A DNA stretch of 64,000 nucleotides from Ricordea florida. Lineage: Eukaryota; Cnidaria; Anthozoa; Corallimorpharia; Ricordeidae. A program made the translations under genes and the position numbers. The notes beneath the pieces were generated by a model that searched no databases, had not been told where the DNA came from, and worked only from the letters and a program-made list of their open reading frames with translations. The DNA lies in contig OX453277.1 of the NCBI GenBank assembly GCA_949710005.1, positions 1,835,501 to 1,899,500 on the forward strand, in the 5' to 3' direction. Positions 19,170-52,400 of this stretch are shown in pieces. Each line of letters starts with the position of its first letter. Positions within the stretch are counted from its first letter, which is position 1.

Positions 19170-20351
19170 GTAGATGGTGGCATTCGCTGGAGTTACCTTA
19201 GTCTACCCCATTCTTTTAATTGCCTGTTTTAGTTTTAAGAGAAGTACGCTCCCATAAATATGAAAGCATGAAATGTTTATGAAAGAAAGCCTCGTTTATT
19301 CCTTAACATGCTTAGCATCGGTTAGTCAATTGTGGGGACAGCTCTTTGTTTGATGTTGTTGTCGTGGTGAACTCACGCATTTGGGACGTCATTTATTTCA
19401 GGTTTCGTCGTTCAAATAATGCTATTACATACCACAACATGAAAAGCTTTTTAAAATATTTACAGTGTTTGCATAAAACGGAGATTTTGTTGTTTCCGTT
19501 GTTTTGTACTATTTCGGAAAACGTGCTTGTTTAGACATAAAGCCGTCGTACTCAATAAGATCCTTGGGTCATGTTCTCCAGTTGTTTACCAACTCTTTGT
19601 CGAAGAGCCTCTTATAGTCGTCAATGCTTATAAGTTCTCGCGCCAGACTTCCAAAGAAAGAGGATGAAGTCATGGGAGTACGGGCAATTTTTTGCCAGGG
19701 GGGAGGGGGGGGGGGGGTGAACCATTTGCCCAAAAAGATTATCGCTAGTTGCCCAAATTCTTTACGACACAGTCGAAACGAAACGAGTGCCATATGATGC
19801 ACTAACATAGGCCTACATATGAAGTGAAAATATCCTTACATATGAAACTATCGTATGAGCTCGTAAAACACGTCAAAAGAAATAAAGTATCTCTGTTCGA
19901 GAAAACACATACAAATGCAAACTTCTTTAGAAATTGGCTTTGTCCAAATTTCTCTTGATGCCCAAAAAATCTAAGTTGCCCCAATTTTTTTTTTTTTTGG
20001 GGGGGGGGTTGGGGTGGGGGGTGCTGAATTCTCTCTCCTTCCACAGCCCACCCCCAACCCCGACCCGTGCGCCTATGGATACAGTCAATTTCTTAAAAGG
20101 TCTTTTCCAATTTTCACTATACTTGGTTCCAAGGCATTCTCATAATAACATCTTAACCGTCTCCCGCCTGCCTAACTGTTGTCAAAGTCGAACAAAGAAT
20201 AGCACTTTGATCCAAAGCAATTTTCCTGGTCACCAGTTTTTCTAATACCCTGGAAAAAAGGCGTCTCTCTTATTTTATTATTTTTTTTAACTGTTATCAC
20301 TGTAAAAATCTCAGCGTAGAAAAATGAATTATTTGAATAAGGTTACATTTT
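19170..20351. other. Gene-free spacer with poly-G tracts
   Basis: No supported gene. Long G runs occur near 19700-19720 and 20000-20020, each with GCCCAAA/TTGCCC-type sequence alongside, suggesting two related copies of a repeat in opposite orientation. The proline-run ORFs here come from the G tracts. Confidence 0.4.
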
Positions 20352-21906
20352 TACGGTGGCCCATAGGGGCAAAACGCAACTCAATTTCTCTTCTGAAACA
20401 CAACAATCTTTCAGAGAACACAACAATCTTTTAGAGAACACAACAATCTTTTAGAGAACACAACAATCTTTTAGAGAACACAACAATCTTTCCGAGAACA
20501 AAACAATCTTTTTCAGAGCACAACGAAATTTCCCGATACACAACAATCTTTTTCAAAACACAATAAAATTTTCTGATACACAAACGCAAACTGAAACACA
20601 ACAAAATTAATTGAAACACAACAAAATTTCAAAGTACTGGTAACTAACTCTGACGCTGAAAGCGACCGGAACCTGGGATAAGCTCTGGCCACGTCACTGA
20701 AAGGCGCCCTTTTTGTATCGTTCATGTGAATTTGATCCGAAATGGTTTCTTCAGGTTCAATAAGCTGTACTCCAGAAGAGGAAAGCATAATTTCATATTA
20801 CTTTTCAAGAGGCTATACGTACGAAGTTATCAATGAATTTTTAGCTAAGTTTCATGGCATTTCAGGCACGCCTCTTTCAGAAATAATCCAAAGTTCTCAA
20901 GGAAGCATCACTAATTCTCAAACGCCAAGACAAAGCCGTAAACGTAACCGCGAAACGCGGAAAGAAAAAGCTCACATACGTGACAGTAGCAACGGCAATT
21001 ACGATATAGCCAGAAAGTGTTAACGCTCTGACGAAAAGGCCGCCATGTAGATGTTAGTAAAAAAATCTGGATCTATTGCCATACTACAGGCATTGAGACA
21101 AACACACTTGCCCTAGAACACTGAGATACAGTGCACGGGCAAAGATCAGGCCAGATCCAGAATTTCAATCTGACATCTATAAGATAAGAAAAGACGCAGA
21201 GCATAAACTGCAACGAGCGTTAAAGAAATTTCACTACCGTAGCGTAGAGATAAACAAACTGAAACTTAGAGAACTTGAGCCAAAGTATTCTAAAGAAAAC
21301 TTTATTGAGAAAAAGGCATTTAATACAGGATCAACCTTTACTGAGTGAGATATACAAAGAGCCTCCCATCATATTGTACAAAAGAGGAAAATTGCTCAAA
21401 GACATACTCGTGAGATCCAAACTCTAAAAGCAAAGAAACCACACTTGCGAACAGCGGGAGTCGTGTAGGCCCGTCACAACTATTTTTAAATCGAAGGTAA
21501 ACTTATGCCGCACCTTGGGCAAAACTTGTGATCTGCTCTTCTCCAACCACCACAACTGTGACAAAACATGGCGGGCAACAGCATGGAGCGCCAGAGCAAA
21601 CCCATGTGACCATAGCTAGTCCAAGGTTCCGGTCGCTTTCAGCGTCAGGGTTAGTTACCAGTACTTTGAAATTTTGTTGTGTCTCAATTAATTTTGTTGT
21701 GTTTTAGTTTGCGTTTGTGTATCAGAAAATTTTATTGTGTTTTGAAAAAGATTGTTGTGTATCGGGAAATTTCGTTGTGTTCTGAAAAAGATTGTTGTGT
21801 TCTGGAAAAGATTGTTGTGTTCTCTAAAAGATTGTTGTGTTCTCTAAAAGATTGTTGTGTTTCAGAAGAGAAATCGAGTTGTGTTTTGCCCCTATGGGCC
21901 ACCGTA
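20352..21906. mobile_element. Decayed DNA transposon with long, internally repetitive TIRs
   Basis: The left arm 20352-20674 and right arm about 21624-21906 are inverted copies beginning TACGGTGGCCCATAGGGGCA. Within each arm a 20-bp unit (GAACACAACAATCTTTTAGA) is tandemly repeated, with more copies on the left than on the right. CATTTT flanks both sides (20346-20351 and 21907-21912), a likely 6-bp target duplication. The interior has a helix-rich 93-codon ORF (20742-21023) and then decayed coding-like sequence with stops (about 21140-21440). Superfamily not assigned. Confidence 0.8.
20742..21023 (+). CDS. 93-codon ORF inside the TIR element, HTH-like N terminus
   Basis: Open from ATG to TAA. 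It contains SIISYYFSRGYTYEVINEFL, resembling the helix-turn-helix start of integrase-type transposases (a short 'grow and repeat' helix pair), then a basic tail (PRQSRKRNRETRKEK). Downstream, about 21140-21440, another frame is coding-like but has stops (KLQRALKKFHYRSVEINKLK), so the ORF is probably the surviving 5' part of a dead transposase-associated gene. Confidence 0.35.
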   Translation: MVSSGSISCTPEEESIISYYFSRGYTYEVINEFLAKFHGISGTPLSEIIQSSQGSITNSQTPRQSRKRNRETRKEKAHIRDSSNGNYDIARKC

Positions 21907-21949
21907 CATTTTATTACTGAAACTAATCACAACAAGCTTAGGTATCAAA

Positions 21950-22242
21950 AGAAGTTATTTTCTTCTGCTGTTATCGCCTCCCAACTAGCAATTGCACATT
22001 ATGAGTGCCCAACTATGAATTGTACAGAGCATAGAGCCAGCCAGACCTCAGGGCAAAACCTAAAAGGCTATCGAGTGAAGGGACAAAAAACTGAACTTTT
22101 TTCTCAAGTTGTACCAAAGGCGGTAGTGCACTGCCTTCCCTCACAGAGACTGGTAATAAACGAAGTGCCAGCGGCACCTGAGTTCAACCAATGTAGGCGA
22201 CCTAATAAACAGGTAAAAAGACCAAAGAAACGAAAGACCTAG
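21950..22242 (+). pseudogene. Unrecognised coding-like tail next to the TIR element
   Basis: A plus-strand frame that reads protein-like (CPTMNCTEHRASQTSGQNLK, then PKAVVHCLPSQRLV, then a basic end KQVKRPKKRKT) and stops at 22242. The same open frame extends leftwards into the transposon TIR, where it is only repeat. Could be the last exon of a transposase-like or SWIM-type gene. Family not known. Confidence 0.25.
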
Positions 22243-22539
22243 AAGGAAAAACAACTCATCGTTACGAACTTGGCAGACAGCACCTTCCCTGCCCCATTGG
22301 TGTTGGAAAAATAGGCTTTTCCTCGCAGAATTAAAACGCTTGAAATACAGGGGTTAGTAAAATTTGAACCTTGCCTTCATGGTGTCATTCCGTTGTCTTC
22401 ACACCAGGAGCTTTAGCCCGTGGAGCAGGTAGACGAACGCTTGGGGCACACCGAAGAGCTCGTCCGGATTAAAACCGAAACGGACATTCCGCAGGCAGAT
22501 GGGAGGAGCCGTTGGAGAGGCAGTAAACAAAAGGTCTCA

Positions 22540-22795
22540 ATGGGGAGGTGACTTTCGTGGGCAACGGTTAATATTTTTGCTTTTTTACGGCCACCGGTTA
22601 ATTTATTTGAAAATTAATTTCCATTGTTTTAAAAAGGTAATAATTAATTTTCATTGTTTAAAAAAGTTAAAAATTTATTTTCGTGGCTAGAATTTTTTAC
22701 GGTTAACATATTTTACGGCTAACGGTTAAAATGTTCCACTTTTTACGCCTAGCGACAAAATTTTTGCCCCGTTTTACGACTAACGGTTTCCCCCT
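22540..22795. repeat. TACGGCTAACGGTTAA minisatellite, degenerate copy
   Basis: Several imperfect ~32-bp repeats with the core TTTTACGGCTAACGGTTAA and T-rich spacers. The same repeat occurs in a cleaner form at 58288-58503, which makes it a dispersed family. Confidence 0.7.
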
Positions 22796-22859
22796 TTGAA
22801 GTGATAGCAAATGGAAAAATGAGAGACTCGCCGATACACTGAGACTCTTGTTTAAAAAT

Positions 22860-23240
22860 CCGAGACCGTGACTAATATAAGGCCCCGTTTACATGAGTAA
22901 AGTTGTCCCAGGACGAGGGGATATCTCGCCTAGCCGAGTCACTCGGGGCGAGCTAAAATTTCATACATTTCTTTGTAAAACGCAAAAAAACCGTTTATAT
23001 GACGTCCCGGGACGAAGAGTTGTCCCTGTTACCAGAGACATCTCACGTAGCCGAGGCGAGTCATCCCTTCCCACCCGAGCCAACTTTCTCAATGAACAGT
23101 CTGTCCCTTTGTCCCGTGACGCTCGTCATAATCGAGGCAGTCGAAGCATGCAAACGTGGCCTGTTCATCGAAAGTTTCAATAATTTAACAGGACCAAAGC
23201 TCCACTTTAAGATTCATTGGAGTATTAAGAAGCCCATTGA
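22860..23240. repeat. Probable dispersed repeat (GGCCCCGTTTACATGA type)
   Basis: GC-richer block with recurrent GTCCC(A/G)GGACGA and CGAG motifs. ORFs on both strands are short and unrecognised. Assigned as a repeat only on appearance. Confidence 0.25.
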
Positions 23241-23335
23241 CACTAAAAGGGCTAACGATTGAGTCAATCAATTTGGTTTAGAGTTTACAGGAATCAAATT
23301 AGCAGATACAAGTAACAGTTTCTCGAATGTATAAT

Positions 23336-23589
23336 AGGGGTGGCGAATGGTCCTTCAAAAACTCTGGGTCTCGCAAAATTTTAGTCGAATTTCACGGGTC
23401 TCGCAGTCTCGTTTCTTAGAGGTTATGTGCGTCTCGCAGTCTCGTTTCTTATACGAAAGAGTCTCGCACTCAAAAGAGTCTCGCACTCAAAACACTTTAA
23501 CGTCTCGGTATCACAATCTACAAAAGTCAAAATGTCTCGGGCTCGCAAAGAAAAACGCTAGTCTCGCTGAAGTACCATTCGCCACCCCT
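23336..23589. repeat. 254-bp MITE with TIRs and TATAAT target duplication
   Basis: Ends AGGGGTGGCGAATGGT and ACCATTCGCCACCCCT are inverted copies, and TATAAT flanks both sides exactly (23330-23335, 23590-23595). The interior is a run of GTCTCGCA-type motifs. Non-coding. Confidence 0.85.
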
Positions 23590-23595
23590 TATAAT

Positions 23596-24625
<1,030 letters not shown>

Positions 24626-26901: not shown

Positions 26902-28762
26902 ACTGATGTACAGTTAGTAAGTAAGTAAGTAAGTAAGTAAATCTTTATTTAGACACGGTATTTCCTTCAGGACCATACAATATTTAATTAGAATAAATGT
27001 AACTACCTAACTAATTTAATATTATAAAACTACTAAAAAGAGAAATGATAAAAACCTGCTTTACAATGAAGCCGTGTATAAAAACAAAATAAAATTTATA
27101 TAAGACCACTGTCAAAATCATAGTTCTTCAACTTAGATTTAAACTGATTAAGAGAGAGCGATTGTCTAATATTCAAGGGCAGACTATTCCATAGTACAAC
27201 TCCGCTGTAAGAAAGACTTCTTTTACAGTAATTAGTGCGGGGCTGTGGGATAGCAAGCGTACCATCACTGCCTCTTAGGTTATAAGTCAGAGTATCGGAA
27301 CGGAAGACAAAGCGTGAACAAAGATATTCCGGAACCATATTATTTACAATCTTGTACATCATTATTGATTTATTAACAAGGCGTTGACGATCCAGTTTAA
27401 CCCAGTTGACCATCCTCAACAATTCATCGGTATTACGATCGTAATTTGAAAAAGTTATGACGCGTGCTGCCCGATTTTGTAATTTCTGTAACTTTTGAGA
27501 AAGAGTTTTAGAACAGGATCCCCAGACCGAACTGCAGTAATCGAGATGAGGTTGGACTAATGAATTGTAAACGGAAAGTAAAGTCTTATATGGGACCAAG
27601 AGAAAATGATGGGACCGAATACCTAATACGTTTAATGGCACTAATGCCAGAAGCAATCTTTTTGAAAAGCTCATTGATATGACACTCCCAAGTAAGATTT
27701 TCATCAATGTGTACACCTAAGGATTTAACAGTCGAGACTCGTTTTATCGGAAACTGGTTGATATTAGCAGTAGGATTCACTGTAAAATTTGAAAGCCTTT
27801 GCTTGGAACCAATCAGAATGAATTCTGTCTTTGTCATATTTAAAGTTAGTTTGTTGGCTGCAAGCCACACACGAATTCTCTCCAAATCAAGATTAATACA
27901 ACTACTTATTTCATCAACGTCACTACCAGCAAAAGTAATACTAGTGTCATCGGCGTACATCCTTGGTTGGGAATGCTGGAGGCAATTAGGCAAGTCATTT
28001 ATATACAATAGAAATAAAAGGGCCCCAAAAATCGTTCCCTGTGGAACACCACAGCGAAGGAACATTTTGGACGATTTATTCCCGTTTACAAGACACGTTT
28101 GGGTTCGGTCTTTTAAATAAGAGCAGAACCATTGGTTTGTGGAACCCTGAATACCATAAGCTTGTAATTTTGAGAGAAGAATAGAGTGATCCACAGTATC
28201 GAAAGCCTTCTTAAGATCTAAAAATACAACGGCATTAATAAAGCCGCGATCAATGTTTAAAGACCAATTATCAGTCGCTTCAATCAATGCAGTTACTGTA
28301 AAATGAAGCGAGCGAAAACCGGATTGGTGTCTACTAAGAAGATTATTTTCATTTAGGTAACGATACAACTGATCATAAATAATTCGCTCGAAAACCTTGG
28401 CCACAACCGGGATAATCGAGATCGGTCGATAATTAGAAGGATCACTTCTACTTCCTGCTTTCTTAAAAAGAGGCGTGATTCTTGCATTTTTCCATTCATC
28501 AGGAAAAATACCAGTATCGATCGATTGATTGAATATCAAAGCGAGTGACCAGGAGATTAAATCCGGACATTCTTTTAGAAGTCTTGCTGACACAGAATCG
28601 AGACCTGTAGCCTTTCTCTTGCATAATTTATTTAGGTGGCACAAAACGTGCGATTGAGTCACACGCTGGAAACTAAAACAATTGCTGGTTTGGTAAATAT
28701 ATTTATCGAAAGAGGTGCCGACTTCCTCTATATCCCTGGACAGTTCGGGACCGATTTCTGCG
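26902..28762 (-). mobile_element. CR1/L2-like LINE, 5'-truncated, with 10-bp target duplication
   Basis: Minus-strand reverse transcriptase from about 28762: KATGLDSVSARLL, PLFKKAGSRSDPSNYRPIS, SGFR, AFDTVDH, GVPQGTIFGALLFLLYINDL, catalytic YADD, TLNMTKTE. A one-base frame change near 27600-27640 shifts to the C-terminal half (SLVQPHLDYCSSVWG, LQNRAARVITF, SGVVLWNSLP), stop at 27096. The endonuclease is missing (5' truncation). The 3' end is a (TTAC)n run at 26910-26940. TTCGGGCAAA flanks both sides (26892-26901 and 28763-28772). Confidence 0.9.
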
Positions 28763-43482: not shown

Positions 43483-46400
43483 TTAGCCGGATCCTACGGC
43501 AGAAACCGCCAAAGAAAAGGAGAGAAATACAATGGCGGCCATAGGGCCTATCATATGGGCTGTTCCTGTAGCATCTTTAGCTTTCTCACAAGTGGATATA
43601 GCCTTTATATCTGCGAGGTAGTCATCTCCAAGCCAAGCCTGATATGAGTTTTTTTCACCAACACTAGTCAACCGTTTTGTGGAATCCTTGAATATGAGAT
43701 CTTTGCCACCGAAAATCGTCGACTCAAACAGTTGGAATTGCGTGGAATTTGTTTGATTGATTCCAAACATCTCCGAAGCTTTCAGCAGGATCTGTTGATA
43801 ATCAGCAATATTGTTACCCCTCTTGGTCATCACTGCGTGAGATGGAACCCTGGCAAGGTTGCATTGAAGGTGCTGTCCAATTTCTGTAAAGAAAAATAGC
43901 CACAAAATGTTAGTCCTGCTCTTGATCTATGTCAGTGTTAAGGCAACAATGATTTACTCGTTTTCCCGCCTTTAATAGTCAACCGCTGTTGTACCACGGG
44001 CATGAAAGACCCACGACTAGCTGAAAACGGCCGTGTTTGTAAAGAAATGTTTTGTTCGTCTTGGATTTTCAGTAAATGTCCAATTCGTGGGCTTAATGTT
44101 GAGCCCACTATGAGTATTCTATCAACACGAACAGAATGCGCTCTTCTGTTTTGCGTAAATTTTCTTCATGATCCTTTGATTGAAGCCGGCTGGCAAATCA
44201 AATGATATTTAATGTGTCTAACTGAACGGTTTTCAAGTGACTGTTGTTAAAGTAAAACCATGGCGATTAAATTGACCAGTCAGAAAAGATGCACGTGGTT
44301 CAGTGAACCAATCAGAACGTAAATGCGTACGTCAGCACCAAGCTCTTGCGACCTTGTCGCGATTGGTCCAAATTTACTTCAAGTAAATTTTTGGCTAAAA
44401 CGAAAATTGATCTTCGATTCACCAGTGCCATTACGTTACAGTATTTCCGGTTCTCTGCGAGAGGAACCGCGCAGTACAAGCCAAACATCTTGAAAGATTT
44501 TTTCGTAGCTCTGAACATCATTTATCTGTGATTTAAAAATGAACTTGAAACTTGAAGCGATTAAGGAAGCCATTAATGACATTACTATGCCAATTTTTTT
44601 GACCAAGGGTACGCAAATTGACGCTGATAAAATCAAGTAAAATGGAATTGTGAAAAGGTAAAGTGAAATGTATCTTAACCGCGTACCTCCACGTCCTCCC
44701 TCTTTACAGAGATACTGGTAATCGTTCCCGGTTCCATAGAAAGAGGGATTAGCTTCCACCATTTCTTGAACAGTTGAATGTTTGATGAACGCCACGTCTC
44801 CGACACCCTCCGCCATGCACTTGAATGCTCCGCTGTAGTCTGCAAAACGACCGTCCGATTTGCATCCTCCCTGGCAAAGTTCACACAGGTTCTGGGGATT
44901 GGTGTTATTCGGGTTGTACTTAGGCAGCATGTTATCTGCAAAAAAAAACAAACAATTGAAGAAACAAATACGTAAATATACAAACAAACAAGAAGACACA
45001 TACAAACGAACAAATAAACAAACAGACAATGCATTACTAAATGGAGAACAGTGAGATCCTGCTAAGTAAGCTATTAAACAAAATATCAAAAAATCACCAC
45101 CATTGCTTGGTAGCTTTTCAATATATGGCTCTATATGTAATGCAGGGTTTAGTTCAGACATTATTGAGAATTTCCTTTAACCCTTAAAAGTCCCAGTAGT
45201 GACCAGCATCGAATTTCTCATTACAATATTCACTGTTCGTCAACCATGCAGGTTGAGAATAACGAAAATGATCACCAAAAAAGATTTGTATTGACATTTA
45301 AACAAATTCTCCTCACTAGTACCATGAGAAATATATGAGACCAGTTATGAGAAAATAAATATTGATATTGGGGCTTTAAGGGTTAAACACAATCTTAAAT
45401 GGTTAGATTGTGTAGCCACTTATAAATTCTGTATGATTTTTGGGTCTTCTGTCGAAGCCTTTTTTTATAAAGAAGGTATGGTTCATCGATAACGTCAGTC
45501 ATAGATAGAGAAAGTAACCTGATAACATAGCTTTCGGAAAGGGCGCCCTACGATTGGCTTAGGCGCGCGAGCCATTTGCCCATTATTGTAATATCAAATG
45601 TTTGCCTGGATGTGACTAAGTGTTGATTGGCTTGATATTTTGATATATCATGATAATATCCAAATATCGATATCAATGGGTTGCATGTTGACGTCCCATT
45701 GTTAATTAGTAAAAAAATTGTGAAGTGTTATGTTGTAATGAAGAAATGGTACACGTACGCTTCAAAAAGTTGTGAGTCTTATGTGATAATGGAGAAATGG
45801 TACACGCTGCACCTCGAACATCTCTTATGCTTTTTTTCGTGCTCAGCAACCTCCCGCGTGCGTCCATAACTCGATGGTTGCACACTGCACGTTTACCATT
45901 TCTTCAGTGAAATAGCGGGAATAAGTTGTATAACCAATCCTATATTGCAGTGTCGTTACAATGGAATAATCGACTTGTTTCACCTGGTACACAGCTTTTC
46001 TCGAAGAAGTTTCCCGCTGACTTGTATGGATTACAGCTCGAATCTTGTTTCATATATTTCTTTGACAACAAAAAACCTATAGGGACGTTCCAACCAGCTG
46101 TTTTTCCGGCCCCAGTATGGCAGGACTTCTTTCCCTGTAGTTTCCTTATATCAAAATCTTTATCGGTGTTGTTTTTCCTTCTCACCGCCACGGCGTAGTA
46201 GCTAGTCTCGTATAAATCCCCATAGTTTTCACCAACAACTGGTACCATGCCATGATCTTTGCCTGAACATCAAAACACACGACATGGTCAGAAAATGAGC
46301 ACTTAACACAAAACTGACTTGTTTTCTACTCAGTCTCAGGAGAACATTCGTCTTTCCCTCAAGTAAAATTTGCGATCCTTTATTGATATTCATTATCTTC

Positions 46401-49400
46401 ATTAGTTTGTTAGAAAACTCCAAAAGAAGAAATTTAAATTCCATTAAAACAATGAAACACACAAACAGCCACTGCTCGCAAATAGCTCAGGCTTATCGAG
46501 GAGGAAAGAGAAAAAAGGAAAAAAATAATAAAAGGAAGAAATTTATAACTAGGAAGAAATTAACAATTAATTATTATTCATTGTTATTATCAATTATTAT
46601 AATTATCACGATCTCTCTGTATAAATGATCAAATTTATAATTCAATATTACAAAATATACAAACTATACAAGCTTACTTTACATTTCATGTCATCGTAAT
46701 TGCATAATCAAAATTTAAAAGAAACGCAGGCAAAATCGAGATTTGCTTTGCGTTGTGGCAGAGCCTTGTTTTTAGCGGACCATAATGCACTGCGTTGTCG
46801 AAGAGCCTCGCTCTTAATTTAGCGGACCAGAATACACCGTAGAATGCAATTTAGCAATCATTTTGAGAACTTTTCGCACCAAGAGAAAACGAGGGACAGA
46901 GTCCCTTGTATTCCCTTGTTTGCACGTAGTCGTGCAACATTCGATTATTTTTTATTTGCTTCGATGGTTTGTTGTTTTAACTTGTGCAGCAGCTGCCATG
47001 TGCTTCTTGTTGAAACATTTCTGCACTGGAGTTTTCACACCTTGGAGACCGTTCATTTTTTAAGGGATAGGGGGGGGCTGGTGGGATTTGGGGGAGGGCC
47101 ATGCGAAAAAAAATCGCTTCAAAGGGGGGGTCACCTTAACAAAATTAAATTGGATTGTCAGGGAAGGGGATGAAGAAGACAATTTGGAAGCTCTTTTGAG
47201 AAATTTAGATGGGATGTGTGCAAAACAGCTTTCTTTATAGATTTGTAAATATTCACAAGTAGTTGCATTTGGCCGATTCTGGCGCAAAAGGGCGTGGTCA
47301 ATTTTTTCCGGGGACTGGACCGAGCTCGGTCAGAATTTTTTGGGTGTGGTCAAAAATGTTGGGTCTCAACTTGTTCGATTTTTGGTCGATGATTTTTTTG
47401 TCGATTTCGATTTTTTGTTTGGGAGTGTCAAGGTGACAAAAATGTATCTTTGTGGGGGGTGGGGTGGGGGAAGCGGGTAGGGGAAATCCCATCGGAAAAT
47501 CCAATAAAATTTAATGCTTGTTTATATTAGAGCATATTTGTTACTTGAACCGAGTAACAAATACCCAAGACTTAATGTTAATTAAGAGGGACTTAGATGA
47601 AACTCTAGTCAATTCTAGATAATATTCTTAGATTCTACAAGTATTCATGTAGACTGCATACTAGAAAGTCTCGATTTTTGTTGATATTTCTGTGGACTAT
47701 TCTAATTTTTTGTTAAGCATTCTAATAGATGATTTCCTAGTACATCTCTTGGATTTTCAATAGAGGATTTGCTTCAAATTTAAATTCTGAACATCCATAA
47801 CCGCATCAGAAACCAAAAACATATAACATGTAATGATTCCAGTTCCTCCTTTTTCACGATCTATTTCAAGTGTCACACCAGTATAAATATCATTTAGAGA
47901 ATAACCATTACCATGAATTTTATTATCGGGATAGGATCTCAAATCGATCCACAAAGCGAATTTGTCCATGTAGAAATCTTCCTCTTTGATAGAATCATTC
48001 AATCCAAAGCGTTTAATAGCTGATCTCCATAAATCGGTTTGATTCATCCCCTTGGAATATAGTTGGTTTGGTATCCCATCCAAGCTAATATTGATGGATG
48101 TGATTTCTGGATTCACAAAAGTCTCAGAATCTCTATTTCCTGGTGTATAGCTATTTGTGAATAGGCAAAGGATACCCGTCATGGATCTTCTGGGAATATT
48201 CACATGTTTAAAAATTTTATCATCATTAGGTCTTGAAATTTTAAACGTTTTGTGTAAGAGAATGTCTTCGTAAGTGAATGTTTTCCCCACTTTGTAGGAA
48301 GCTAGTGCCTGAGTCGTCAAATAATTACTTAATATGCATGAATACTCCAACTCAATGTTAATCATTGTATAATTTGGAGGTTCTTCAGCATTCGAGTAAC
48401 GACAATATCATCAACTGATGCTAGTGTAATTTCAAATTCGAGTGAGTCATTATTAAACGCTCTATTATAAAACACACCATGATCCTTGAGAATGGGATGA
48501 TCTAAAGGTATTGCATACTTAGTGTTATGAATCGCAGCAAGATTAACCTCCTTTCTATTTGAAGTGTTTTTATCACCGGCATTTGTTCTAAGTTTACGCA
48601 TATTTTCAGAAGAGATGCCTTGCCTCAACCTATCTCTACGCTCCTTCTTTGGTAAATGCAAATCATGATACGTCTGGAATACATTGAATCTCTCAGTATC
48701 TTGTATAATTTCTCCACCGAATTTAACTATAAGTCTGGAGATGAGATTTCTCCCCACATTATTGACTAGAGTATTGTCTTTATGTCCTGAGACATTCAGA
48801 TTGAAGGTGAGATATACACTACCTGGAACTAACATAAGATTCTCTGATAATTTCGGAATTTCAATGTATTGTGTTTCACCAGGATTAGCAGATGAAGGAT
48901 TGAATGTGATTCGATTCAATGATGTTTTCGCTTTCAAACCCCCCAATTCTCTAGGAAAACGATTTGGTTCAAGAATTTCTGATATAGTAGTCATTTTATA
49001 TATATAATCAGAATAATCTTTAAAATGTTTAGAAACATTACTTATTCTACCACTCTTATTGGACTTAGATGTTCTAGGAAATCATCTATTAGAATGCTTA
49101 ACAAAAAATTAGAATAGTCCACAGAAATATCAACAAAACTCGAGACTTTCTAGTATGCAGTCTACATGAATACTTGTAGAATCTAAGAATATTATCTAGA
49201 ATTGACTAGAGTTTCATCTAAGTCCCTCTTAATTAATATTAAGTCTTGGGTATTTGTTACTCGGTTCAAGTAACAAATATGCTCTAATATAAACAAGCAT
49301 TAAATTTTATTGGATTTTCCGATGGGATTTCCCCTACCCGCTTCCCCCACCCCACCCCCCACAAAGATACATTTTTGTCACCTTGACACTCCCAAACAAA

Positions 49401-52400
49401 AAATCGAAATCGACAAAAAAGTCATCGACCAAAAATCGAACAAGTTGAGACCCAACATTTTTGACCACACCCAAAAAATTCTGACCGAGCTCGGTCCAGT
49501 CCCCAGAAAAAATTGACCACGCCCTTTTGCGCCAGAATCGGCCAAATGCAACTACTTCACTCGTCAAGTGAAATGTAACAGTTAATATGACATCAAGATG
49601 CATGTAGTGGCATTTGAACGTATTAATCTGTAAAATACCAGATGTAACTTCGAGGTGGCCAAGGGGGGGTCATCCCGAAAAAATTCCTTTTGAGTGGGGG
49701 GGGGGGGGGTCATGTGAAAAATTGGCAAGCTAACGGGGGGTCACTCAATTTCCCACTGACACTCCCCCAAATCCCACCAGCCCCCCCATCCCTTAAAAAA
49801 TGAACGGTCCCTTGGTGACCTGGACATCATTTCGTGAATTGGTCAGCGCGGTAAAGTGCACCAGCATTTTGAGAGCTTTAATGTTACGGGCTTCACATAT
49901 TCACAAAGTATTCTAGGATAACTTTTTTTATACAAATCTCTTCAATTTGAATGAATCACAAACATGAAGCCTTTTAACCAAAGGAACTGGAACTTCTAAT
50001 TGAAGCATACTATTCCATATATATTCAAGTGTCACCATTAGCGTTTTCACAAACTTGAACGAACAATATAAATAAATGACAACCATTTCATCAAAAGGTC
50101 TATGCAGTCCTTGTTCCAATTTGCAAACTACATCCAAATTTCCACAACACTTTCATAGCTCTGGCTACACTAGTTTATTAATTAAAGTAGGTGTGTCAAC
50201 ATATTCTAAGATATGTAGGAAGAGCTGATGTAAAGACGCTTTAAATTTGTGTCTATAAAACACTTGGATACTTTGAGGAATACTGTTCTCAATTCTAGCA
50301 CCAAATCTAGAAAATGAGTATTTTAAATGATTTGTTCTGGGATTTTTAAAACCTAGCATTGTAGCTATGTGCTCATTGTGAAGGTTTAACAAATAAGTTA
50401 AGAATGTTCTCCGGCAAACTTGCAGTATTGAAAGTTGATTGGGAGATCGCATGAGATCTGTATGGAGCAAATTAAAGTGATCCTACGGCATCAAACTTGG
50501 TAAAATTCGTCAGGTTTAATTCATCATTGACATGCGAAATATTTGATTACTGGTGAACCATGAACACTATTTGGCTCACAGCTTTTCGATAAAAACCGGC
50601 TGCGATGTAATTTATTTCTGCAAGAGGCATATGGCCTTTTATTGATTTCTATCGTTCCATTAAATTGAATCTCTTGGCGATCGCGCTTTAGGTAATGTTC
50701 GCTGCCCTAAAGGTTCTGGAGGTGGTTCACTCGTCAACGTTTGCAACATTCGAAGAGAACTTTCGGATTTCCATGAGACCATATATTATCCTCTAAAGGC
50801 AAGCAGAATTTGAGTTATTTTTAATGTATTTGTGTTGTTGTCATACAAAAGACGCACCTGCCAAGTAGATCTCTCCACCATCGAGTGTAATCAAGTCTGC
50901 AGCTCCTTGTTCAATCTTCTTCATACAGTCAGTGGCATCGGAACCCTCCACACAAGCGAAGTTGATGGTCTTGTTCAAAGCGGCGCCAACCATTGCTATA
51001 GCATCATGAAAATCTTGACACTTTTCGTTTTCTTTGCTGGTGATGCACCATCTCATTGTAACATTCTTATCACCTGAAAATGAAATAAAAACTGATGTCG
51101 GACTGAGCATTGTACATAACCTACTGAGGTTATTGAGGTCCCAGGAACATGAAATTAGTGTCATGGAGACGACCGAGAAAAATAGCTTTGAGCTGTAAAC
51201 CTTTAAGCCTTAAACTTTTTGTACCCAATCGTCACAAAACTACCACTTTTTCAAACTTGTGGTACAGTACACAAAATACAAGCATCCAATAAATTTGATG
51301 TAACTTCAGATTCTTAGCGGGTTTTTTAGGATTACAGCATAGTACTGAATCCAAAGAAAGTTCTGTGAAAATTTCACATAATTTGAGCAAATACGTATTG
51401 AGAAATTCTTTTCGCCACTGGGTCTGCTGATGTACGTGAAATTGCACAGTCAAAAAACTGATCCACTTTAGAGTTCCGTATGACGAAAACAGTCTCATCA
51501 AGAAAACTAACTGTCACTAAAACAACATAAGTTGAGTTCTCAATTCTTCTCGTTAAAAGGCACCAAATACACACTTTTCCCCCTCTCTTTCTTGGCTTTT
51601 GTCTTCTATTTTATGTCACTTCCCTCTGAGAAGTCTTTTTATTCTTTGCTAGTTTTCTTGTAGTTCGCCTTTGTCATCCTAAGCTTCTTGGCATACTGAA
51701 TTCACTGGGAGTGATGCCAAGGTTTTCACACACTCTAATGGCAGCATTAGATCCAATCAAAACAACGTCCGATTGGAGCAGAGGCGTAAAACTCTTCAGT
51801 TCAACCACACGTTTAACACAGTAAACGAAGGCAGAGTGCACGGTTGTAGTGAAACCTAAGACCCCCGAAAGTTAAGACCTAAGACCCGAAAACTAAGACC
51901 CGAAAGCTAAGACCCGAAAAATAAGGCCCGGTATTTTCGAAGACACCTATTGTTGTTCTCTGTTATCTTGATCAGACGAATATTTGCTTTTGCAATAGAT
52001 ACAAGGTATATTTGTTTTCTTTTCAATATTCTTTTTTTTGCTATTCTTTTTTTTCTAATATTCGCTGTTGGCGTGCGTTTTTCCGAAAACTAAGACTTCC
52101 AATTTTCCTTGCCGTCCTTTGTTTTTACCCGAACGAATGTGTGTGCGATGCGCCTCAACAAAGACTTTATATTCTATGTTAATTACTCTCTTTTCCTTTT
52201 CGTGCGTTGTGTTCTTTTTCATTTATTTTTGCTGGAATGTTTGTGCGATGCTCCTGCTTTCTTTCATTTTTTTTTAAGCCAAGGTCTTAATTTTCTTAGA
52301 TCTTAGTTTATACGCTTCATAAGAGACGTTATAGCCTTACTTTGATGGATCTAGGGCCCTCTATTTTTTTCCTTATCACAGTCTCCACTGAAGAGTGACA

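Follow-up and report, generated by a model that had tools for sequence, protein, structure and literature searches.

Results

A capsid gene between inverted arms in a transferrin intron

We examined a 64,000-nucleotide stretch of the Ricordea florida genome (hereafter the window; positions 1835501-1899500 of contig C6 in a 537.8-Mb assembly) and in it a 2299-bp element, 5'-AGTAGTTG...CAACTACT-3', which consists of two terminal inverted repeats (TIRs) and, between them, a gene for a major capsid protein (MCP). A first-pass annotation of this DNA had described near-identical 491-bp inverted arms around a capsid-only interior within a host intron, and this description held: the arms (47257-47747 and 49067-49557, 491 nt each, spaced by 1319 nt) differ by 5 mismatches, and PF00405 matches on either side show that it lies within an intron of a minus-strand transferrin gene. 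Comparison with other copies set the true termini one base inside the arm pair, at 47258 and 49556, where the flanking target duplications agree at 4 of 5 bases (Table 1). The view of the element as recently inserted and non-autonomous was likewise borne out.

The same annotation had seen two abutting open reading frames (ORFs) resembling capsid halves. The capsid assignment stood and the division into two genes did not: the ORFs align to the N- and C-terminal parts of a single continuous protein of ~412 aa carried by the relatives, so by this comparison they are one MCP gene interrupted once near residue 200, and two separate genes are ruled out. Because its frame is interrupted, the window copy is probably inactive as a source of capsid. 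No further ATG-started ORF of at least 100 aa lies between the arms. When compared with 15 intact MCPs of the near group of relatives, the two ORFs show 84.9-95.0% and 89.1-94.6% identity; against MCPs of older capsid-only subfamilies the figure is 72.3-82.4%, and against nine MCPs of long elements described below it is 61.4-72.4%.

The family matched was Capsid_N (Pfam), which the N-terminal part reaches at 18.5 bits, below the cut-off of 24; the C-terminal ORF had no Pfam match. Capsid_N was found in 18/20 members of an alignment of relatives and was the sole family for all MCPs of this genome that were scanned (10/10), one of them above the cut-off (L042, 24.6 bits), and the database protein P0189 (100% identical to a locus of the same genome and grouping with long-element MCPs) scored 31.1 bits; the window copy and every other capsid-only copy scanned (six) remained below. 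Gene order gave the second line of evidence, the MCP lying between an integrase and an A32-type ATPase gene in 20/20 long relatives. An ordinary cellular gene family, raised by the annotation as the alternative, is ruled out, as the gene is found either within TIR elements or flanked by integrase and ATPase. The family match and the gene order would lead one to expect a double jelly-roll fold for the protein. Searches of PDB sequences with the capsid proteins returned nothing useful, and no free relatives were found in IMG/VR scans or among phage records.

Table 1. Positions of the capsid-only element, its parts and the neighbouring transferrin exons (window coordinates)
Feature	Position	Strand	Basis
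Left terminal inverted repeat, starts AGTAGTTG	47258..47747	+	Arm comparison, ends of other copies
Right terminal inverted repeat, finishes CAACTACT	49067..49556	-	Arm comparison, ends of other copies
Left target-site duplication TCACA	47253..47257	.	4/5 bases equal the right one
Right target-site duplication TCACT	49557..49561	.	Read at the element's end
Repeat, outer 213 bases, long-element-like	47258..47470	+	Identity to ends of three long elements
Repeat, inner part (arm positions 264-491)	47520..47747	+	Common to capsid-only copies of the window's subfamily
11-bp perfect palindrome, 7-base loop	47535..47563 (left arm); copy 49251-49279 (right arm)	.	Inverted-repeat scan
MCP, N-terminal part, 210 aa	48362..48994	-	ORF; Capsid_N 18.5 bits, cut-off 24; identity to relatives
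MCP, C-terminal part, 202 aa; frame interrupted at junction	47757..48365	-	ORF; identity to relatives
Older imperfect inverted pair enclosing the element	47047..49809	.	Inverted-repeat scan
Transferrin exon on the element's upstream side, in gene direction (PF00405 profile 1-64; limits approximate)	50853..51056	-	PF00405 match
Next transferrin exon (PF00405 profile 59-158; limits approximate)	45973..46278	-	PF00405 match

Capsid-only copies form a large family

Searching the assembly with the repeat gave 66 places (best 40 of 520 candidates scored), which comprise three long pairs and, the window's own element aside, 22 short places. All 20 short copies that were fetched contain an MCP gene, and the remaining two have an MCP match adjoining the repeat. 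The MCP frame is open over its full length in 9/20 (two with in-frame deletions), and other ORFs of at least 100 aa in these copies occur only in flanks, in repeats or antisense to the MCP. Six further copies of the near group (6/6 inspected) showed the same TIR-MCP-TIR arrangement with neither integrase nor ATPase, bringing the near relatives to 26/26. The annotated idea of a recent derivative that kept only its capsid gene was partly supported: it was right about gene content, and the element is not a one-off and belongs to a large, old family under purifying selection.

A search with an intact MCP of the short lineage returned at least 102 matches, the first 57 of them at 91% identity or more and covering at least 410 of 412 residues; 51 of these 57 contain no stop, a share biased towards intact copies because the best-scoring come first. 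At 72-80% identity lie 25 matches, and none of the 23 checked is accompanied by a packaging ATPase (0/23). Among these older subfamily members, L062 and L064 have inverted arms and no integrase or ATPase (L062 with AGTAGTTG ends, CCTGC/CCTGC duplications and an outer repeat only 38% like the window's), L063 has neither gene and a rearranged flank, and the other copies (20/20) have no ATPase within 350 bases downstream of the MCP, where all four long-element controls have it. Both matches fetched at 70% identity carry the ATPase, one also the integrase. In L063, the right flank passes into part of another MCP gene in inverted orientation, a nested or head-to-head insertion.

Perfect 5-bp target duplications flank 18/20 of the short copies read, with L009 and L010 in this count representing a single duplicated insertion; one right end (L023) was not found. 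The motif AGTAGT...ACTACT stands exactly at both ends of the window copy and of 15/19 other short copies, and also occurs in L021 and L022 with the end set a few bases inward; it was not found in L016 (left end AGTAAT). The capsid-only copies L009 and L010 (C6, ~21.81 and ~22.24 Mb) are near-identical and share their flanks, having arisen by segmental duplication once inserted; their capsid frame breaks at a different place from that of the window copy.

Long elements share the ends of the short ones

Longer relatives with an integrase, which the annotation had suggested seeking by a genome-wide TIR search, exist in this genome as well. Inverted pairs of the repeat's outer ~213 bases lie 18-22 kb apart on contigs C8, C9 and C11, and these long elements share with the short ones the AGTAGTTG ends and 5-bp target duplications, which were perfect in both long elements read at both ends (2/2; GACGT and ATTCT). 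The C8 element has genes for a 1298-aa polymerase-like protein, an integrase, an MCP and an A32-type ATPase, and further, unassigned ones. Its integrase (254 aa; 329 aa in the C9 copy) is of rve type (PF00665, 2.1e-4, and NCBIfam IS481, 1.6e-10, both below curated cut-offs; PHROG transposase, 1.9e-7), and the packaging ATPase matched PF04665 above the cut-off (9.8e-12). The label polymerase-like derives from motifs judged by eye; the protein (L032:2104-6000) also has Rho_N/SAP-type repeats at its start and an endonuclease VII match. No protease family was matched among 18 proteins of the C8 element that were scanned.

A search with P0189 scored at least 101 MCP copies of 6147 candidates, and because all 20 long copies inspected among these place the MCP between integrase and ATPase, the long form is common in this genome. 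Since ends and duplications are shared, dependence of the short elements on the long ones is likely, and the long elements are likely the helpers of the capsid-only elements.

Three observations concern the long form itself. The C9 element (L029, L030) has its MCP gene split by ~4.4 kb of inserted DNA, explaining part of its greater length. A piece of long element (L033:7634-8002) carries a SLOG-family gene (YAcAr, 9.9e-11), cargo that seems out of the ordinary in an element of Polinton type. Two public protein clusters, P0122 and P0228 (MCP, 4980 members, the largest MCP cluster listed; ATPase, 3858 members), reflect very large Polinton-type amplification in one or more other genomes; we considered such clusters as capsid-only bursts and rejected this, as the MCP cluster is paralleled by that of the ATPase, and the burst is probably one of long elements, assuming that both clusters come from one genome.

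A probable single origin and a probable exchanged end

In the MCP tree, 18 capsid-only MCPs formed one clade (support 100/100), and 9 long-element MCPs and 13 database proteins all fell outside it; the interrupted window copy was kept out of the trees and placed by the identity of its own ORFs. Intact capsid-only MCPs are ~65% identical to the MCP of the C8 long element. Given the single clade and this distance, the lineage is old and not a fresh deletion product, and fresh deletion of the sampled long elements is ruled out, dS being near 1.7-1.9. The DNA that follows the MCP stop could be aligned to known capsid-only copies in 19/20 of the further copies at 72-80% identity, compared with 0/4 long controls, and this shared DNA points to one origin of the capsid-only arrangement. 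Alternatively, short copies could have been derived repeatedly from long elements by internal deletion, in which case the selection we report below would be that acting on the long elements. The window lineage does share its outer end with long elements, and extinct long carriers are conceivable, only part of the genome's MCP copies having been inspected. Yet no long element and none of the 13 database proteins lies inside the capsid-only clade, and the alignable DNA beyond the stop separates the two forms, and we regard repeated derivation as quite unlikely.

With gaps counted, identity to three long elements over the outer 213 bases is 93-96% for the window copy and its 99% identical relative L009 together, and 94-95% for the window copy by itself. 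Identity to 16 other copies of the subfamily is 29-69% and to L062 32-35%; taken by itself, the window copy is 31-69% identical to 17 short copies outside its own 99% lineage (L010, L012 and L023 were left out of this comparison). Taken in pieces, those other copies in which the window's outer ~100 bases found a match are 80-93% identical to them, and because this piecewise similarity persists, the ends are related, with insertions and deletions contributing to their differences. The MCP and the inner repeat of the window copy belong to the capsid-only family; for the inner repeat (arm positions 264-491), the pieces fetched from three long elements showed no match. On the simplest reading, the window lineage bears an end swapped with a long element, in either direction, and such an exchange would be expected of an agent that depends on helper enzymes.

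The arm palindrome (11 bp, 7-base loop) occurs in 8/8 checked members of the window's subfamily (in L015 in one arm only). It was not found in L062 or L064, nor in 4/5 end pieces of long elements that were checked; the palindrome of L034 is another one. An imperfect inverted pair (47047-47108 and 49749-49809, about 90%) surrounds the element and is probably an older MITE-like repeat (MITE, miniature inverted-repeat transposable element) that served as the insertion target.

Purifying selection on the only gene of the lineage

Ratios of nonsynonymous to synonymous divergence (dN/dS) among older capsid-only members were 0.26-0.28 (mean dS 0.35), and between older members and the recent group 0.23-0.47 (mean 0.30; mean dS 0.47). 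Seven deep pairs that were bootstrapped gave 0.23-0.43, with upper 95% limits of at most 0.582. A one-omega codon model gave 0.43 for 18 capsid-only sequences (against omega 1, lnL -4550.2 against -4590.4), and a codon model for nine recent copies gave 0.50 (lnL -2486.7 against -2494.2). Choosing intact frames removes stops and leaves missense changes in place, therefore it does not explain the low ratios. By these estimates, the capsid gene is under purifying selection while being the sole gene of the lineage.

A simpler account would make the short element an ordinary non-autonomous transposon moved by the integrase of the long elements, with the capsid gene as functionless passenger DNA. 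Many frames are indeed broken (11/20 of the first fetched short copies and the window copy), and the pairwise dN/dS of the recent group, although noisy (0.22-5.77), averages 0.88. A passenger would not be expected to show the low ratios of the deep pairs, nor was any short copy without a capsid gene found among the 22 short places besides the window (best 40 of 520 candidates), and we consider this account unlikely. The overall pattern fits decay after insertion superimposed on constraint between insertions.

Discussion

We favour, with a probability of roughly 0.6, the reading that the window element is a recent copy of an old capsid-only lineage, the members of which are best seen as endogenous satellites, their helper being a Polinton/adintovirus-like virus of the same genome. 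The integrase of the long elements would insert the satellite in trans, and their polymerase, starting at the shared ends, would copy it. The MCP that the satellite itself encodes would be produced while the helper is active and would assist in packaging the satellite's short DNA, the helper supplying the ATPase and the remaining virion proteins. Self-packaging of this kind would explain why the MCP has been kept although the helpers encode one; were helper capsids sufficient, the gene should decay as in other non-autonomous elements. Retention of the MCP thus suggests that it benefits the DNA encoding it.

Several points weigh against this reading. The satellite is known from genomic sequence alone and its packaging is something that we infer, and for a capsid of Polinton type, a 2.3-kb DNA is small. 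The MCP copies examined are only a part of those in the genome. The broken frames and the ratios of the recent group, given above, count here as well. Selection may act otherwise than in cis, with kin copies or the host as the route of the benefit. For the presumed helper's polymerase-like protein, Pfam, PDB, NCBIfam and PHROGs gave no polymerase match.

The short MCP might also have been selected for poisoning or competing with helper capsid assembly, for its own or the host's benefit, without packaging short DNA. It is ~35% different from the helper's protein and yet conserved, and interference could be useful where long elements are so numerous (at least 101 MCP matches, with 20/20 of those inspected being long). 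However, interference alone leaves the amplification and spread of the encoding element unexplained, and the copies are scattered with target duplications; we hold it to be very improbable. Within the favoured reading, we tentatively put forward, at somewhat less than an even chance, a fuller version in which the lineage would be a satellite virus, endogenous and minimal. It would descend from a single ancient event in which a Polinton-type capsid gene escaped between ends that the helper recognises, and would since have diversified into subfamilies with different repeats and regained helper ends by swapping, its own ~2.3-kb DNA being packaged in its own shell protein and all enzymes coming from the helper.

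Satellite viruses are subviral agents that encode their own capsid protein and need a helper for replication. The short element likewise has its own capsid gene and no replication or integration gene; it differs in being double-stranded DNA, TIR-bounded, chromosomally integrated and equipped with a Polinton-type MCP, and in being known here as sequence only. MITEs are short, have TIRs and target duplications, are mobilised in trans and carry no gene; the short element is similar in size, TIRs and duplications and differs by a full capsid gene under selection (deep dN/dS 0.23-0.43). Non-autonomous elements usually retain no structural gene, and what we see here seems the reverse of the usual loss, all but the shell having been lost and the shell long retained by selection. 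The long elements share with Polintons, Mavericks and adintoviruses the rve-type integrase, the MCP, the A32-type ATPase and long TIRs, whereas the short element is without its own protein-primed family B DNA polymerase (PolB) and rve integrase and has only the MCP between its arms. Virophages and polinton-like viruses, as capsid-bearing double-stranded DNA agents with inverted repeats, resemble the short element, although, unlike it, they carry several further genes; some of these agents integrate, and virophages depend on a helper (in part from PMC12220804).

Vertebrate Mavericks have TIR ends of the form (AGT)2//(ACT)2 and 6-bp target duplications, as described in PMC8097293; the AGTAGT...ACTACT ends of both short and long elements fit this form, and their duplications differ, at 5 bp. 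Polinton-like viruses have duplications of 5-6 bp, and the cryptophyte survey that reports them retained only inserts of 6-80 kb (PMC12220804), a range by which a 2.3-kb element would be filtered out. Cnidarian MCPs are reported to lie outside the main Maverick-Polinton cluster (PMC10120064). A literature search of titles and abstract beginnings, covering few subscription papers, returned no description of a capsid-only Polinton derivative. The lineage would represent a dependent agent with its own capsid that is invisible to surveys whose size filter starts at 6 kb or above. Particles of Polinton-type elements in animals have not been observed so far, as stated in the abstract of PMC8097293, and capsid retention would be indirect evolutionary evidence that such virions matter for spread in animals.

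Other features of the window

Away from the element, tandem and inverted copies resembling alpha-tubulin exons were noted by eye at 10928-24494, and an inverted pair of 20-bp tandem arrays lies at 20352-21906. ORFs at 27096-28662 resemble, by eye, a non-LTR (long terminal repeat) reverse transcriptase.

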